Shown here: piece by piece, positions 451 to 5,996 of the stretch
How positions within the stretch are numbered: position 1 is the stretch's first letter
Layout of the letters: each line of letters starts with the position of its first letter
Source of the DNA: Bacteroidales bacterium
GTDB lineage: Bacteria; Bacteroidota; Bacteroidia; Bacteroidales; FEN-979
Direction of reading: 5' to 3'
Length of the DNA: 64,000 nt
Assembly (NCBI GenBank): GCA_017882335.1
Contig: JADGPR010000003.1
Coordinates: 1-64,000, forward strand
Notes under the pieces: generated by a model
Told to the model about the DNA's origin: nothing
The model's database searches: none
Seen by the model: the letters and a program-made list of their open reading frames with translations, nothing else
Position numbers and translations under genes: made by a program

Positions 451-954
451 ATGAGATTTCGTGAAATATTTGGCTTCCTTTGGGCTCAAAAAGGCCAATA
501 CCTTTTATGGTTATCAGCAAATCTGGGTGGATTAATTTTAGCTTATGCTGCAGGGGCATGTATTTGGCTTTTCAGATGTACATATGGTTCTATTCTCCCG
601 GGATATGAATTATTTTTAATAACAGGAACAATTAGTCTTACTATATCAGGTGCTACGTATATAAAGAGTAAAAGTGAAATGGAAGTAGGCACATTATCGC
701 CATTGTTGCTTATTTCTTGGTCATCATTGTTAATGTTAACTTTTGGTTTCCTTATATTAATTGGGCTGAAAGAGTTTCAGCGGACGGAACTGTTTATTTG
801 GGTTTTATGTACAATCCTATTTGTACTCATGATAACATGGAGTACAATAATGTGGGTTTTTGAAACCGATCTGAGAAATAGAAATGTCCCGGATGAACCA
901 GCTTTACCGGAGGACCTTGATGTTAATAATCTACCAATAATGAATAATGAATAA
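451..954 (+). CDS. hypothetical multi-pass membrane protein (about 4 TM)
   Basis: Intact 167-aa ORF with several hydrophobic stretches (LLWLSANLGGLILAYAAGACIWLF, LLLISWSSLLMLTFGFLILIGL, LFIWVLCTILFVLMITWSTIMWVF); 8 nt upstream of the next ORF on the same strand. Confidence 0.75.
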   Translation: MRFREIFGFLWAQKGQYLLWLSANLGGLILAYAAGACIWLFRCTYGSILPGYELFLITGTISLTISGATYIKSKSEMEVGTLSPLLLISWSSLLMLTFGFLILIGLKEFQRTELFIWVLCTILFVLMITWSTIMWVFETDLRNRNVPDEPALPEDLDVNNLPIMNNE

Positions 955-962
955 AATCATAT

Positions 963-2072
963 ATGGAAGAGCAAAATATTGTGAAAATTCCCATTCTAAA
1001 GGTTGAACAAACAGGTTGGAATTTTTATGTCGGGACAATAAATTCCCATGATTTATACCATATTGCGGAAACCGATAGGATTAGATTAGAAAATTTAAAA
1101 GTACCTAAATACTTAGGATTTCAGCGTGCGCTAGTTGAGGAAAGGGTTCGGTCGATAAAAGATTATCTTCTTACCCCGGGAAGCACTTTCCCTAATTCAA
1201 TTATTTTAACACTTGATTCGGAATACATACATAATTGGGAAGAATCGTCAGATCCTTCATTTAGTCTTATCAAGGTTAGAAGAGAAGTCGGTGCAGCAAA
1301 AATTATTGATGGGCAACATAGGTGTGCTGCACTTGAAGCGGCAGATTCTACTTTTGAAGTGATTGTCACAATATTTATAGATCTAGATATTTTTAAATGT
1401 GCTAAAATATTTTCAAAAATTAATAGTACCCAAAAAGCAGTTAATCCATCCATTAGTTATGAATTATTTGGATATTCAAGCGAGCCTAGTCCCCAAAAAA
1501 TTGCTCACGATATTGCTTTGAAATTGAATACGACCGAAGGTTCTCCCTTTTTTAAAAAACTTTTAATGTTGGGTTCACGTGACGGATGGAGTGAAGGTGT
1601 ATTGAGTCAAGCAACATTTTGCAAACAAATAATTAGGTTATATTCTAGAAAGGAAGAGGAGGATGAAAATGTTTTATTAAGAGGAGGAAAGTTGAAAGAA
1701 TATACTGGTTATCCATTGAGACCATATTTTATAAATAATGATGTAAATACAATTCTTTCTTTAATATGGAAATACTTTTACCAAATTGCAGCAACATGGC
1801 CAGATCAATGGAATGATCTGACTAGTACATCTGTGCTTGTCAAAACAACCGGTTTTATTAGTTTTATGGAGGTACTTAAAAAATGGTTGTCAATCAAGAG
1901 TGTTGATGAAATGGCAAGTGATGGTTTTTTTCGACTAGCGTTTATAAAAATAAAAGATAAATATATTGAAACAAATAAACGATTTATTCGGGAGAACTAC
2001 CCATCAGGTCACCAAGGTGTTATAGTTCTCAGAAATTCACTATTATCTGATTTGAATATACCAATCTCCTAG
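963..2072 (+). CDS. DGQHR domain (DndB-like) protein
   Basis: AAKIIDGQHRCAALEAA motif followed by FSKINSTQKAVNPSISYELFG, typical of DGQHR/DndB-like proteins. Confidence 0.85.
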   Translation: MEEQNIVKIPILKVEQTGWNFYVGTINSHDLYHIAETDRIRLENLKVPKYLGFQRALVEERVRSIKDYLLTPGSTFPNSIILTLDSEYIHNWEESSDPSFSLIKVRREVGAAKIIDGQHRCAALEAADSTFEVIVTIFIDLDIFKCAKIFSKINSTQKAVNPSISYELFGYSSEPSPQKIAHDIALKLNTTEGSPFFKKLLMLGSRDGWSEGVLSQATFCKQIIRLYSRKEEEDENVLLRGGKLKEYTGYPLRPYFINNDVNTILSLIWKYFYQIAATWPDQWNDLTSTSVLVKTTGFISFMEVLKKWLSIKSVDEMASDGFFRLAFIKIKDKYIETNKRFIRENYPSGHQGVIVLRNSLLSDLNIPIS

Positions 2073-2098
2073 ATTAAATTTGGGAATTTTTAATCCCA

Positions 2099-4408
2099 CT
2101 AATTATCACTTTCAATTAGTCCGTCAATTAACCATTCATGTAATTCGCAAAGGAAGTCATATTCTTCCTCTTTAACACTATAAGTATGAAAATTCTGATT
2201 TCTAATATATTCAAGTTTTTGCATCCATTTTGTTTTTTCTGTTTTTCCACCTCGAATCTTTTCTTCTCCGGGTTTAGTGTATAATGTTTCAAAAAGATCT
2301 TTCCAATTACTACCGTACTCAGCAATCTTGCGATAATCAATAATATTTAAACGATCCCAAGGTTCAACTTCCTCGGATTTATTTTCAATTTCCCGATTTT
2401 TCTGGGCAGCGGAAAGTACAAGTGTGTCTTGGACTTGAGGAGGAATACCCTTTTTAAACCAACCTTCACCATAATTTGAAAATAGTTTTTCCTTAAAATC
2501 CTTTTTAAGGTTCGTTTCTATATCACGAATCATCTTAAAGGATTCTTCATTAAATTTTTTGGCTTCATCTTTCCAGTATTTCTCAAAACCTTCGGGATTA
2601 AATTCAGGTCGTGCAAGATTTATGGCCCGCTGCAAGATCCTCCAATACCGGGCTTTTAGTCCTGAACCATAGCTTTTCTTTAATTCCAACTTTTGGTCAG
2701 ATGTTAACTCTTTTATGTAGACTATCATTGGATCTAAATAGTACTTAACTTCGATCAATAATTTGTCGGTTGAATCAGCTTTAGGATTAATGCCTTTGGT
2801 TTTGATAACGTGATCAATTATGTCACTAAAAACCCGAATAAAGCTTTCAATAGCTGCGTTAATTGTTACAATACCGTCCCCGTCTTCTCCTTTTTTCCAT
2901 TCTTCAAGTAAAGCTTCTTTGATATATTTAAAATTCTCAATCAAAAAAGGCATTAATAAACCAAAAGTGTCATCATTGTTTCCTTTGTAGAAACTTCCAT
3001 CAACTTTTATTGAATTCTTTGAAAATTGTCCAAAAAAATTACTTCGATCCAAGCCAAGTTTTATGGTTTCTGATGTTATACATCGTTTAGAATCTTTTCC
3101 GTCTTCTCCTAGTATTATTCTTCCAAATAACGGAGATTCAGGATTTTCCCCTAAATTTTTAGCGACTAATAATTTTAGCGCCAGAATTCTTTCTTTTAAA
3201 TCATCCGAAAAATATAATAAGTCTGCATTTAAATCATTCTTCAAATTTTTTGAAACAGCTTTTTGATTTTCATTAATTTGCATAAACAATTTTACTTGGT
3301 CTTTTCGTTTTAAATTGACAAAAGCAACAACTGGTATAGAATTCTTATACTTATATTCAGAATTTGCATACCCATAAAGCCGGTGTTGACCATCGATTAT
3401 AAATGCTGAACTATAGCATTTGGGAAAATGGAGTATCCCAATTTTAGATAAAGCAGTTTCAACTTGTGGAGATGCCAAGTCAAATCGTAAATTTCTCTCA
3501 GTATTAATATTAATAACAATAGAGTTTGGAAAGAAACCTTTGCTTTCAACGAATTGCTGAATGGAAGTCAGCCGAGATTTTTTTATAAGTCTTTGGTATG
3601 TTGGAGAAAGCTTCTCATTTGCCTGATTCCTATGCAAGATGTATCCAATCTTTAATAATTTTTCTGGTTCAATTGAAAAAGAATAATAAACATGACCTCC
3701 CATTTTTCCTTGAATAGCGGGTATTACATTGTCTAATTCGGGTATAGATTTCCCAGCATATAATTGTCCTAAGAATTGATATCTTGCAGCAATGCCTAAA
3801 TGTTTAGTTAGTCCTTGATAATATGAAATAGTCGCCTCATTATAATGGACAATATCAAAGTTTTTTAAACGATCTTTATCCGGATCTGATAAGAAATAGT
3901 TACGAGTAGCTAAAATAAATCTTACTTTAGGTTTACTTTCAGGATACAGTTTTTTAAGCGCTTTAAGAATTCCTTCTTTCTTTCCACCAATAGCTTCAAT
4001 AGTTTCTTTAAAATTACCTTTTTTAATTTCACTTTCAGAAGCCTTGCACTCGATTATTAAAATTGTTTCTTTATCAGAAGCAAAAACATCTATTTGTTGA
4101 GTTAGGGTGAGATCATCGGAATAGGGCAGTCGAAATCTTCTATCCTTATTTAAAGTGGAAAATCCCAGATTAGCTATGACTGACCATACTTCATCTTCAA
4201 AAGCAATGTCGAATGGTTTGAGTTTTCGCATCCTGGTAGTTTGTTTGAATTTTTTTTCAAGGACCCATCCATCTGATTCGTATTTCTCTAGTAATTCAGA
4301 AGGGATACTTTCATATATGAAAGCCTTTTGTCTCTTTTTAATTTCACTTCTTAAACTTTTATCAGTAACAAGTGAATTAAAAAACTTTTCCCGCAGATTT
4401 TCTGACAT
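2099..4408 (-). CDS. large DGQHR-domain protein with N-terminal PD-(D/E)XK-like nuclease region and C-terminal HEPN-like region
   Basis: N-term FEDEVWSVIANLGF...QQIDVFA(x)..ILIIECKAS (D107, E120, K122); central AFIIDGQHRLYGYAN and INENQKAVSKNLKNDL; C-term LEYIRNQNFHTYSVKEEEYDFLCELHEWL (Rx4H). Confidence 0.8.
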   Translation of the reverse strand: MSENLREKFFNSLVTDKSLRSEIKKRQKAFIYESIPSELLEKYESDGWVLEKKFKQTTRMRKLKPFDIAFEDEVWSVIANLGFSTLNKDRRFRLPYSDDLTLTQQIDVFASDKETILIIECKASESEIKKGNFKETIEAIGGKKEGILKALKKLYPESKPKVRFILATRNYFLSDPDKDRLKNFDIVHYNEATISYYQGLTKHLGIAARYQFLGQLYAGKSIPELDNVIPAIQGKMGGHVYYSFSIEPEKLLKIGYILHRNQANEKLSPTYQRLIKKSRLTSIQQFVESKGFFPNSIVININTERNLRFDLASPQVETALSKIGILHFPKCYSSAFIIDGQHRLYGYANSEYKYKNSIPVVAFVNLKRKDQVKLFMQINENQKAVSKNLKNDLNADLLYFSDDLKERILALKLLVAKNLGENPESPLFGRIILGEDGKDSKRCITSETIKLGLDRSNFFGQFSKNSIKVDGSFYKGNNDDTFGLLMPFLIENFKYIKEALLEEWKKGEDGDGIVTINAAIESFIRVFSDIIDHVIKTKGINPKADSTDKLLIEVKYYLDPMIVYIKELTSDQKLELKKSYGSGLKARYWRILQRAINLARPEFNPEGFEKYWKDEAKKFNEESFKMIRDIETNLKKDFKEKLFSNYGEGWFKKGIPPQVQDTLVLSAAQKNREIENKSEEVEPWDRLNIIDYRKIAEYGSNWKDLFETLYTKPGEEKIRGGKTEKTKWMQKLEYIRNQNFHTYSVKEEEYDFLCELHEWLIDGLIESDN

Positions 4409-4414
4409 AATAGA

Positions 4415-5308
4415 CTATTGAAGGCAATTTGTAAAAATGTATTCAATCGTTCTGCCCCGGTAGGAATTTTTTCCTCCTATTAGGCTTGCTCTGGGTAGCT
4501 CAATACGTTTGTCCCCTTTTTCAAAAATCTCTATAATTTTTGGGTGGCTTGCATTGGTTACAATATAAAATGCATCATGAGATCTAATATGATCTATTAA
4601 TTTGCTCAGTCGGTATTGATCTTCAAGGGAAAATAATTTCTGATTATACTTTATAAAACCGTTCATATTATGAGTAACTGTATATGGAGGATCTAAGAAA
4701 ACTAAATCTCGATTCTTAATATTCTTTTTTATATTGTCAAAATCAGAAGAAAATAATGTGGCATTTTGTAACTTGTTGCTGACAAGTCTTAAATTTTCTT
4801 CGTCCAAGAAACCCTTTGTACGATAACCAAACGGTACATTATATTGGCCTTTCTGATTAACGCGATAGATGCCATTAAATGAGGTCTGATTTAAAAAAAT
4901 AAACCGGGCAGCCCCCTCAATAGGTGAAACGCAATCAGATCCTCTGACTTTATAATAGAAGCGCTCATTATTTTTAAAACCTTTCAAAACCTTGATTACA
5001 CCTTCAATATTCGATTTTAAAACTTGATAAGTGGTGATTAAATCCGCATTACTGTCCGAAAGAAACGCTTTGTTTAAATTATTCAAAGAAAAAAATATTG
5101 CACCTCCTCCAAGAAACGGCTCATGGTATTTTTTAAAACCATTTTCAGGTAAAAAAAGATGTAGATGCTTAACTAGCCATGTTTTCCCACCGGCCCATCG
5201 TAAAAAGGGTTTAACAGTTTGTGAAGTAATAGAATGTTTGCAAGGAATTTGAACAGAAGGAGTATTAAATTGCACAATATTCATGAAAATTCGTTCTTTG
5301 GCATCCAA
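4415..5308 (-). CDS. D12-class DNA adenine (N6) methyltransferase, Dam-like
   Basis: PFLRWAGGKTWL motif near the N-terminus, FLDPPYTVTH catalytic motif, FIFLNQTSFNGIYRVN segment; ends 6 nt before the start of the 769-aa ORF. Confidence 0.9.
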   Translation of the reverse strand: MDAKERIFMNIVQFNTPSVQIPCKHSITSQTVKPFLRWAGGKTWLVKHLHLFLPENGFKKYHEPFLGGGAIFFSLNNLNKAFLSDSNADLITTYQVLKSNIEGVIKVLKGFKNNERFYYKVRGSDCVSPIEGAARFIFLNQTSFNGIYRVNQKGQYNVPFGYRTKGFLDEENLRLVSNKLQNATLFSSDFDNIKKNIKNRDLVFLDPPYTVTHNMNGFIKYNQKLFSLEDQYRLSKLIDHIRSHDAFYIVTNASHPKIIEIFEKGDKRIELPRASLIGGKNSYRGRTIEYIFTNCLQ

Positions 5309-5708: not shown

Positions 5709-5710
5709 CG

Positions 5711-5782
5711 TAGCCCCGGCAGGAATCGAACCTGCATTTAAAGTTTAGGAAACTTCCGTTCTATCCATTGAACTACAGGGCC
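5711..5782 (-). tRNA. tRNA-Arg (anticodon CCT)
   Basis: Reverse complement GGCCCTGTAGTTCAATGGATAGAACGGAAGTTTCCTAAACTTTAAATGCAGGTTCGATTCCTGCCGGGGCTA folds as a cloverleaf; anticodon loop TTCCTAA; T-arm GGTTCGATTCC. Confidence 0.93.
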
Positions 5783-5870: not shown

Positions 5871-5996
5871 CGGCAGTCGGCAGTCTGCAGTCAGCAGTCA
5901 GCAGTCAGCAGTCAGCAGTCAGCAGTCAGCAGTCAGCAGTCAGCAATCAGCAATCAGCAATCAGCAATCAGCAATCAGCAATCAGCAATCAGCAAT
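5871..5996. repeat. heptanucleotide tandem array (cggcagt/ctgcagt x3, cagcagt x7, cagcaat x8)
   Basis: 18 contiguous 7-nt units read directly from the sequence. Confidence 0.97.

Follow-up and report, generated by a model that had tools for sequence, protein, structure and literature searches.

Two DGQHR modules beside a Dam-type methylase in a Bacteroidales genome: a candidate methylation-linked defence locus

Four genes near the end of a Bacteroidales contig (JADGPR010000003.1, assembly GCA_017882335.1; the whole stretch analysed, 64,000 nucleotides, is called the window) form a locus which is best seen as two modules sharing one partner, each able to stand with a methylase alone, and not as one four-gene system. 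In module 1 a Dam-type adenine methylase is paired with a long DGQHR protein, and in module 2 a small transmembrane (TM) protein is paired with a short DGQHR protein. The genes and their spacing (8 nt between the TM and short DGQHR genes, 6 nt between the methylase and the 769-aa gene, 26 nt between the convergent stops) are exactly as the first-pass annotation had described them, and the same pairs recur in dozens of genomes, far beyond chance. The roles suggested there, the methylase as self mark, the 769-aa protein as effector and the small DGQHR protein with its membrane partner as another arm, would fit the comparative data, while the view of a single system has to be replaced by that of two modules. 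We see about an even chance that the locus is a horizontally acquired, methylation-linked two-module defence of the kind proposed below.

The locus was recently and horizontally acquired, as follows from its GC content of 33%, against 45% in the rest, and from the lack of the Dam gene in close relatives. The methylase gene is present in a single copy in the host genome; no match was obtained in the four same-genus genomes sampled, and one weak match was found among the other same-family genomes sampled, nearly all of which are without it. A duplicated 3' end of the tRNA-Arg gene was sought as an island boundary and was not found. Beside this tRNA gene, at 5873-5994 of the window, a 7-bp unit (GCAGTCA/GCAATCA) occurs in 17 tandem copies. 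Since the window starts at the contig end, the view of the locus upstream of the TM gene stops at position 1. The methylase reading frame comprises 297 aa from a TTG, and the in-frame ATG at 5284 is the likelier start. The terminator-like hairpin between the convergent genes is a weak feature, since such sites are no more numerous here than in shuffled sequences.

Table 1. Features of the locus and its flank in the window.
Feature	Position	Strand	Remarks
TM protein gene, 167 aa	451..954	+	about 4 hydrophobic segments by hydropathy; partner of short DGQHR gene
Short DGQHR gene, 369 aa	963..2072	+	ParB/sulfiredoxin-type fold; TIGR03187 7.7e-51
Gap between convergent stops, 26 nt	2073..2098	.	terminator-like hairpin 2081-2098
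Long DGQHR gene, 769 aa	2099..4408	-	N-terminal nuclease-like domain, DGQHR core, C-terminal HEPN
Swt1-like HEPN region of long protein (aa ~640-762)	2123..2491	-	R736-N-x3-H741 motif
DGQHR core of long protein (aa 229-400)	3209..3724	-	invariant D339-G-Q-H-R343
PD-(D/E)XK-like domain of long protein (aa ~66-170)	3899..4213	-	D107-E120-x-K122 triad intact here
Dam/DpnM-type adenine methylase gene	4415..5308	-	TIGR00571 5.1e-64; DpnM 2dpm 1.3e-43
tRNA-Arg (CCT) gene	5710..5782	-	flanks low-GC locus; possible island border

The methylase belongs to the Dam family (216.5 bits with TIGR00571, cut-off 114.85; FLGGG and LDPPY motifs present), and DpnM is its closest match. It carries the signature NGIYRVN...GQYNVPFG of the hairpin by which Dam and DpnM read GATC, and the residues N-G-x-x-R-x-N...N-x-P-x-G of this hairpin are invariant in 61/61 Dam proteins paired with a long protein. 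From these residues the enzyme is predicted to methylate GATC.

Relatives of the long protein were collected by a contig scan seeded with motifs of the DGQHR region only, Dam not being in the seed. The best 80 loci, from several phyla, were kept; three of them are cut at the contig start, which leaves 77 assessable. A D12-class adenine methylase is present in every one of these (77/77). A Dam-like methylase lies directly upstream on the same strand in 62, and in five more a second gene of about 300 aa stands between Dam and the long gene. Dam is directly downstream of the long gene in one locus, and another D12-class methylase is nearby in eight, where four calls were made by motif and position and Pfam confirmed L035, L044 (one of those four), L062, L066 and L068. 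L091, with a Dam-like gene about 4 kb off, is the sole distant case. The intervening gene of L036 is DpnII (PF04556, 4.5e-95), a DpnA-like methylase follows downstream in the same operon, and the layout with a DpnII-type gene between Dam and the long gene is repeated in four more loci. The commonest form is the stand-alone pair of Dam and long protein, with no other nuclease. The distance matrices of Dam and the long protein are correlated (r = 0.43), and none of 2000 permutations gave a value as high.

The PD-(D/E)XK triad is intact in the long protein of the window, yet no region of the protein was found to change with the methylase when L062 and L066 were compared with L069 (74-75% identical). 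In the absence of recognition-like divergence on methylase swap, a simple cognate type II endonuclease fits poorly. Moreover, since DpnII is already present in some loci, the long protein is not the sole nuclease there. Avoidance of GATC was looked for as a trace of restriction and is absent from the host window (1.20 observed/expected), and the window holds no endonuclease of the DpnII, MboI or Sau3AI type. In chosen examples, the defence neighbours of the loci are type I R-M, AbiU, DrmB, type IV REase and PDC-M27 genes. The long protein is also attached to a NERD-SLFN helicase and a DrmB-like protein in Clostridia, and to Septu-like AAA and HNH proteins. The latter cluster (L062 8001-14266 and L066 4154-10346; AAA and HNH identified in L066) consists of a D12 methylase, an AAA_21 ATPase, an HNH protein and the long DGQHR protein. 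Distant long relatives on alphaproteobacterial plasmids have no Dam, and are accompanied by a short DGQHR protein, radical SAM, GHKL ATPases and a PIN protein instead. Two such sets (L012 11923-22403 and L013 8203-18591), with a long DGQHR-HEPN relative, a short DGQHR protein, radical SAM, HATPase_c_3 and PIN_8, appear to be a separate modification or defence system that draws on the same proteins.

The DGQHR model TIGR03187 matches residues 231-530 of the 769-aa protein (4.3e-45), and the single-sequence matches to nuclease and HEPN models are weak (Hjc 0.021, HEPN_Swt1 0.06). Across 55 members of the long family, Pfam detected DndB in 51, HEPN_Swt1 in 29 (best 1.9e-5), Hjc in 21 and the Card1 nuclease in 13. 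The AlphaFold2 model (pLDDT 87) is mixed alpha/beta at its N-terminus, has a central domain and ends in helices; this predicted helical end, together with R736-x4-H741, may be of the HEPN kind. Foldseek aligned the model with Card1/Cdn1/Can2, EndoMS, McrC and Hjc nucleases and gave fainter matches to ParB and PadC; no PDB match was below 0.001, and the nuclease and ParB matches were weak but consistent. A viral library searched with the same model returned ParB-like, GmrSD_N and 'DNA-sulfur modification' proteins. PDB sequence searches with the long protein, the short protein and the long-family profile gave nothing meaningful. We infer that the long protein is a nuclease, DGQHR and HEPN fusion with putative nuclease and RNase activities.

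In the alignment of 80 relatives the DGQHR motif and its surrounding residues are essentially invariant and are the only invariant part of the long protein; this core could be a regulatory element. The triad residues are conserved less strictly (D107 86%, E120 74%, K122 72%), as are R736 and H741 of the HEPN motif (about 63% each). When motifs were scored in the best 80 relatives, 51 had an intact triad and 50 an intact HEPN motif; 30 of the relatives had both, and 9 had neither. Since one or the other is missing in many members, neither activity is universally required. Both motifs are lost in 9/9 members of a Clostridia clade (L078, L082, L085, L087-L089, L092, L095 and L097), the set of which comprises a DrmB-like protein, a NERD-SLFN helicase, Dam and the long DGQHR protein; helicase and DrmB were matched in L089, and the remaining loci were assigned by size, position and sequence look. 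The Fisher tests for triad and HEPN loss in this clade are significant (4e-5 and 6e-5) but were rejected as independent evidence, since only one clade is concerned.

Both DGQHR proteins of the window carry the motif and score well above the TIGR03187 cut-off of 58.85 (173 and 155 bits). Both proteins, called DGQHR (DndB-like) in the first-pass annotation, are closer to the TIGR04172 and DpdB models than to DndB. The match of the short protein to TIGR04172 (1.2e-47) spans most of the protein; like its match to DpdB (1.7e-28), it is below cut-off. The top PDB match of the short protein's model (pLDDT 81) in Foldseek is Noc (7ol9, E 8e-4). Its 167-aa partner has at least three hydrophobic segments and was called a TM protein by hydropathy. 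Matches of TM proteins to DUF7027, MadM and 'accessory gene regulator B' were rejected as spurious.

Using a profile of the short protein, 46 short-DGQHR loci were gathered from genomes, plasmids and viral contigs. A TM-type gene (at least three hydrophobic segments) is found directly upstream on the same strand in 45/46; for other genes of this size the same count gives 6 of about 258. Across the loci the TM proteins have 3-5 TM segments and the short DGQHR proteins are of about 380 aa. The TM proteins are 16-20% identical among themselves, a homology too weak to prove, and their pairing rests on position and topology. A truncated short DGQHR remnant lacking a TM partner occurs at L132 6261-6998. 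A DNA-modification system lies in the neighbourhood, that is within the fetched stretch, of 41/46 loci: a 6mA methylase in 30 and dnd/dpt phosphorothioation in 11. No modification gene was seen in the other five, two of which are at contig ends and one of which is a fragment. The 30 methylase loci include DpnII and BglII/BstYI R-M, the sites of which share GATC. In the tree the 30 GATC-type short DGQHR rows, with the exception of the window's, make up one supported clade (100/99), within which BglII partners have about three separate origins. The dnd-linked rows fall outside this clade, as does the long branch of the window's protein. The convergent order of the window (TM and short DGQHR genes facing Dam on the opposite strand) is shared by several IMG/VR loci, two of which adjoin P2-type tail genes, one of these also a CI-like repressor. 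P2-like prophages carry TM, short DGQHR and Dam genes, and the pair is also met on conjugative or mobilizable plasmids and, in Aliivibrio, between dptFGH and dndBCDE.

The modules stand side by side in the window and in four other loci. The four gene types which the first-pass annotation had taken together are all present in L024, L026 and L042, and L050 has three of them, its contig being cut before the methylase. This co-occurrence and a comparison with named defence systems (see below) were the refuting checks proposed in that annotation, and neither went against its reading. Random placement would give 0.008 side-by-side cases in 80 loci, as calculated from how often the short module occurs in a sample of the class; clustering of defence genes would raise this expectation. 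In most loci each module is alone, as in L020 and L147 with Dam, TM and short DGQHR genes. In L026 (Pedobacter jejuensis, 4037-5268) a transposase-like gene pair, which from its sequence looks like IS256, separates the long DGQHR gene from the TM and short DGQHR pair.

In the mechanism that we propose, the Dam-type methylase would mark the GATC sites of the host as self, and the ParB-like DGQHR domain of the long protein would survey DNA in an NTP-dependent manner. GATC-unmethylated incoming DNA, or failure of the methylase, would trigger the long protein, whereupon the PD-(D/E)XK nuclease would act on DNA and HEPN on RNA, that is, restriction plus suicide. The short DGQHR protein would survey the same mark and signal to, or be anchored by, its partner of 3-5 TM segments, and the two would constitute a second, membrane-linked arm. 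The trigger, the anti-phage effect and the role of the membrane protein we infer, as we do the GATC specificity, which is read from residues. More tentatively, and with somewhat less than even confidence, the TM and short DGQHR pair may be regarded as a portable modification-status membrane effector, a ParB-like NTP switch that reads whether DNA bears the mark of its partner system, gates a small membrane protein and serves very different R-M systems as a backup arm. The mark read might be, with similar reserve, 6mA in GATC in one clade and phosphorothioate in others. Binding of ATP and GTP is described for a DndB-like protein, and Noc, a relative of ParB, acts at the membrane (PMC12704722).

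Since no region of the long protein changes with the methylase, a guard of the PrrC kind is a serious rival for module 1, although we consider it unlikely. The long protein would then not read GATC; the methylase or R-M complex, together with the nucleotide state, would keep it inactive, and a phage attack on the modification system would set its HEPN RNase free. PrrC and RloC, HEPN RNases linked to R-M systems (PMC3710099), are a precedent, and some long proteins do sit with DpnII, NERD-helicase/DrmB or AAA/HNH sets which already supply nucleases. However, the HEPN motif is lost in 30/80 relatives, the whole NERD-helicase clade included, and the predominance of the Dam and long pair lacking any other nuclease speaks against a guard as well. 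Still less probable, in our view, is a role of the DGQHR proteins as modulators or cofactors that tune the number of sites which the methylase modifies, the nuclease-like domains mainly binding DNA or RNA. Dam-type methylases work alone, and the D-E-K and R-x4-H motifs kept by most members, together with the HEPN fusion, would suggest catalysis. Such a role would nevertheless agree with the DGQHR core as the sole invariant part, with DpdB and DndB being modification-side proteins (PMC12839542; PMC4507180) and with the ATP/GTP binding of the DndB-like protein (PMC12704722).

Two further explanations concern module 2 and the link between the modules, not module 1, and our confidences in the rivals overlap. 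The TM and short DGQHR pair could be an entry checkpoint or a means of superinfection exclusion, in which a TM tether holds a ParB-like, DNA-reading protein at the membrane so that unmodified DNA is caught on entry, and no cell killing takes place. The closest fold, that of the membrane-working, ParB-like Noc, and the carriage of the pair by P2-like prophages and conjugative or mobilizable plasmids favour this rather doubtful reading, but the topology is a prediction from hydropathy, and a toxin-like membrane role is equally compatible. It is likewise somewhat unlikely that the two modules are unrelated neighbours, each following Dam genes because defence genes cluster. Each module does occur without the other in most loci; the four side-by-side cases besides the window nevertheless far exceed the random expectation, and the same rare domain is used by both modules.

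Prior art covers parts of the two-module arrangement only, and the locus looks like an undescribed variant of anti-phage defence. As the first-pass annotation had stated, no dndA/C/D/E-like gene is found among the four genes; the same is true of dndF/G/H, and none is apparent in the adjacent ORFs of the window, the upstream side being cut by the contig end. In PADLOC 2.0.0 the whole gene set matches no system, only single-gene MTase, DpdB and DndB matches being obtained. The literature searched, which took in little from subscription journals and bioRxiv, yielded no report that links Dam to DGQHR or to the TM pair. PADLOC dates from 2023, and a named system may have been published elsewhere. 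Among DpnII-type R-M systems (DpnM, DpnA, DpnII) the window's methylase is most like DpnM and has the GATC-reading residues, and DpnII and DpnA are retained in the operon of a few relatives; the partner of the methylase here is the nuclease-DGQHR-HEPN fusion. The DndB equivalog TIGR03233 gave 25 bits against a cut-off of 328, and the short protein, although it matches most of the length of TIGR04172 (DGQHR_dnd_1), scores far below the TIGR04172 and DndB cut-offs. In the window the partner is Dam. In PADLOC both DGQHR proteins match DpdB of the dpd (7-deazaguanine) system best (1.8e-28 and 4.3e-20); the NCBIfam model of DpdB gave 99.5 and 67.5 bits against a cut-off of 300, and neither DpdA, DpdC nor any other dpd gene is among the four genes.

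GmrSD type IV restriction has, to our knowledge, no methylase partner; its GmrD nuclease is of the HNH type and targets modified DNA, whereas the long protein is PD-(D/E)XK-like. GmrS has a DGQQR motif and the ParB/Srx fold (PMC4619093). PrrC with EcoprrI is, as proposed here, an HEPN RNase tied to an R-M system and controlled by NTP, but it combines an ABC NTPase with a type Ic methylase, in place of the ParB-like protein and orphan-like Dam of the window. The predicted ParB and Swt1 HEPN architecture of the long protein is shared by Saro_3948, which Anantharaman et al. 2013 (PMC3710099) list only as a fusion; its pairing with Dam, an N-terminal nuclease and a TM module are not described in the passages of that paper covered. 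A full-length relative of the long protein is present on plasmid pNL1 of the same organism and is probably the Saro_3948 gene, the locus tags not having been matched.

We know of no agreed role of DndB/DGQHR proteins beyond the regulation of phosphorothioation. The fusion of the DGQHR fold to nuclease and HEPN domains and its tie to adenine methylases suggest that these domains read the DNA modification state. The other DGQHR protein, which has a membrane partner and is met near GATC methylation and phosphorothioation systems alike, suggests the same. The long-open question of DGQHR function thereby becomes directly testable, also in E. coli, where 123/5426 complete genomes (about 2%) have sequence matching the dnd-linked pair, 109 of them over at least 80% of the query. 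Ho et al. 2015 (PMC4373003) observed that 1-3 hypothetical proteins separate dpt from dnd and that they are confined to dnd-positive genomes. In E. coli 55989 (L191 9077-10756) dptH and dndE flank the pair. Its DGQHR gene is broken into two separately annotated parts, and the AgrB-family label of the TM gene is probably wrong.
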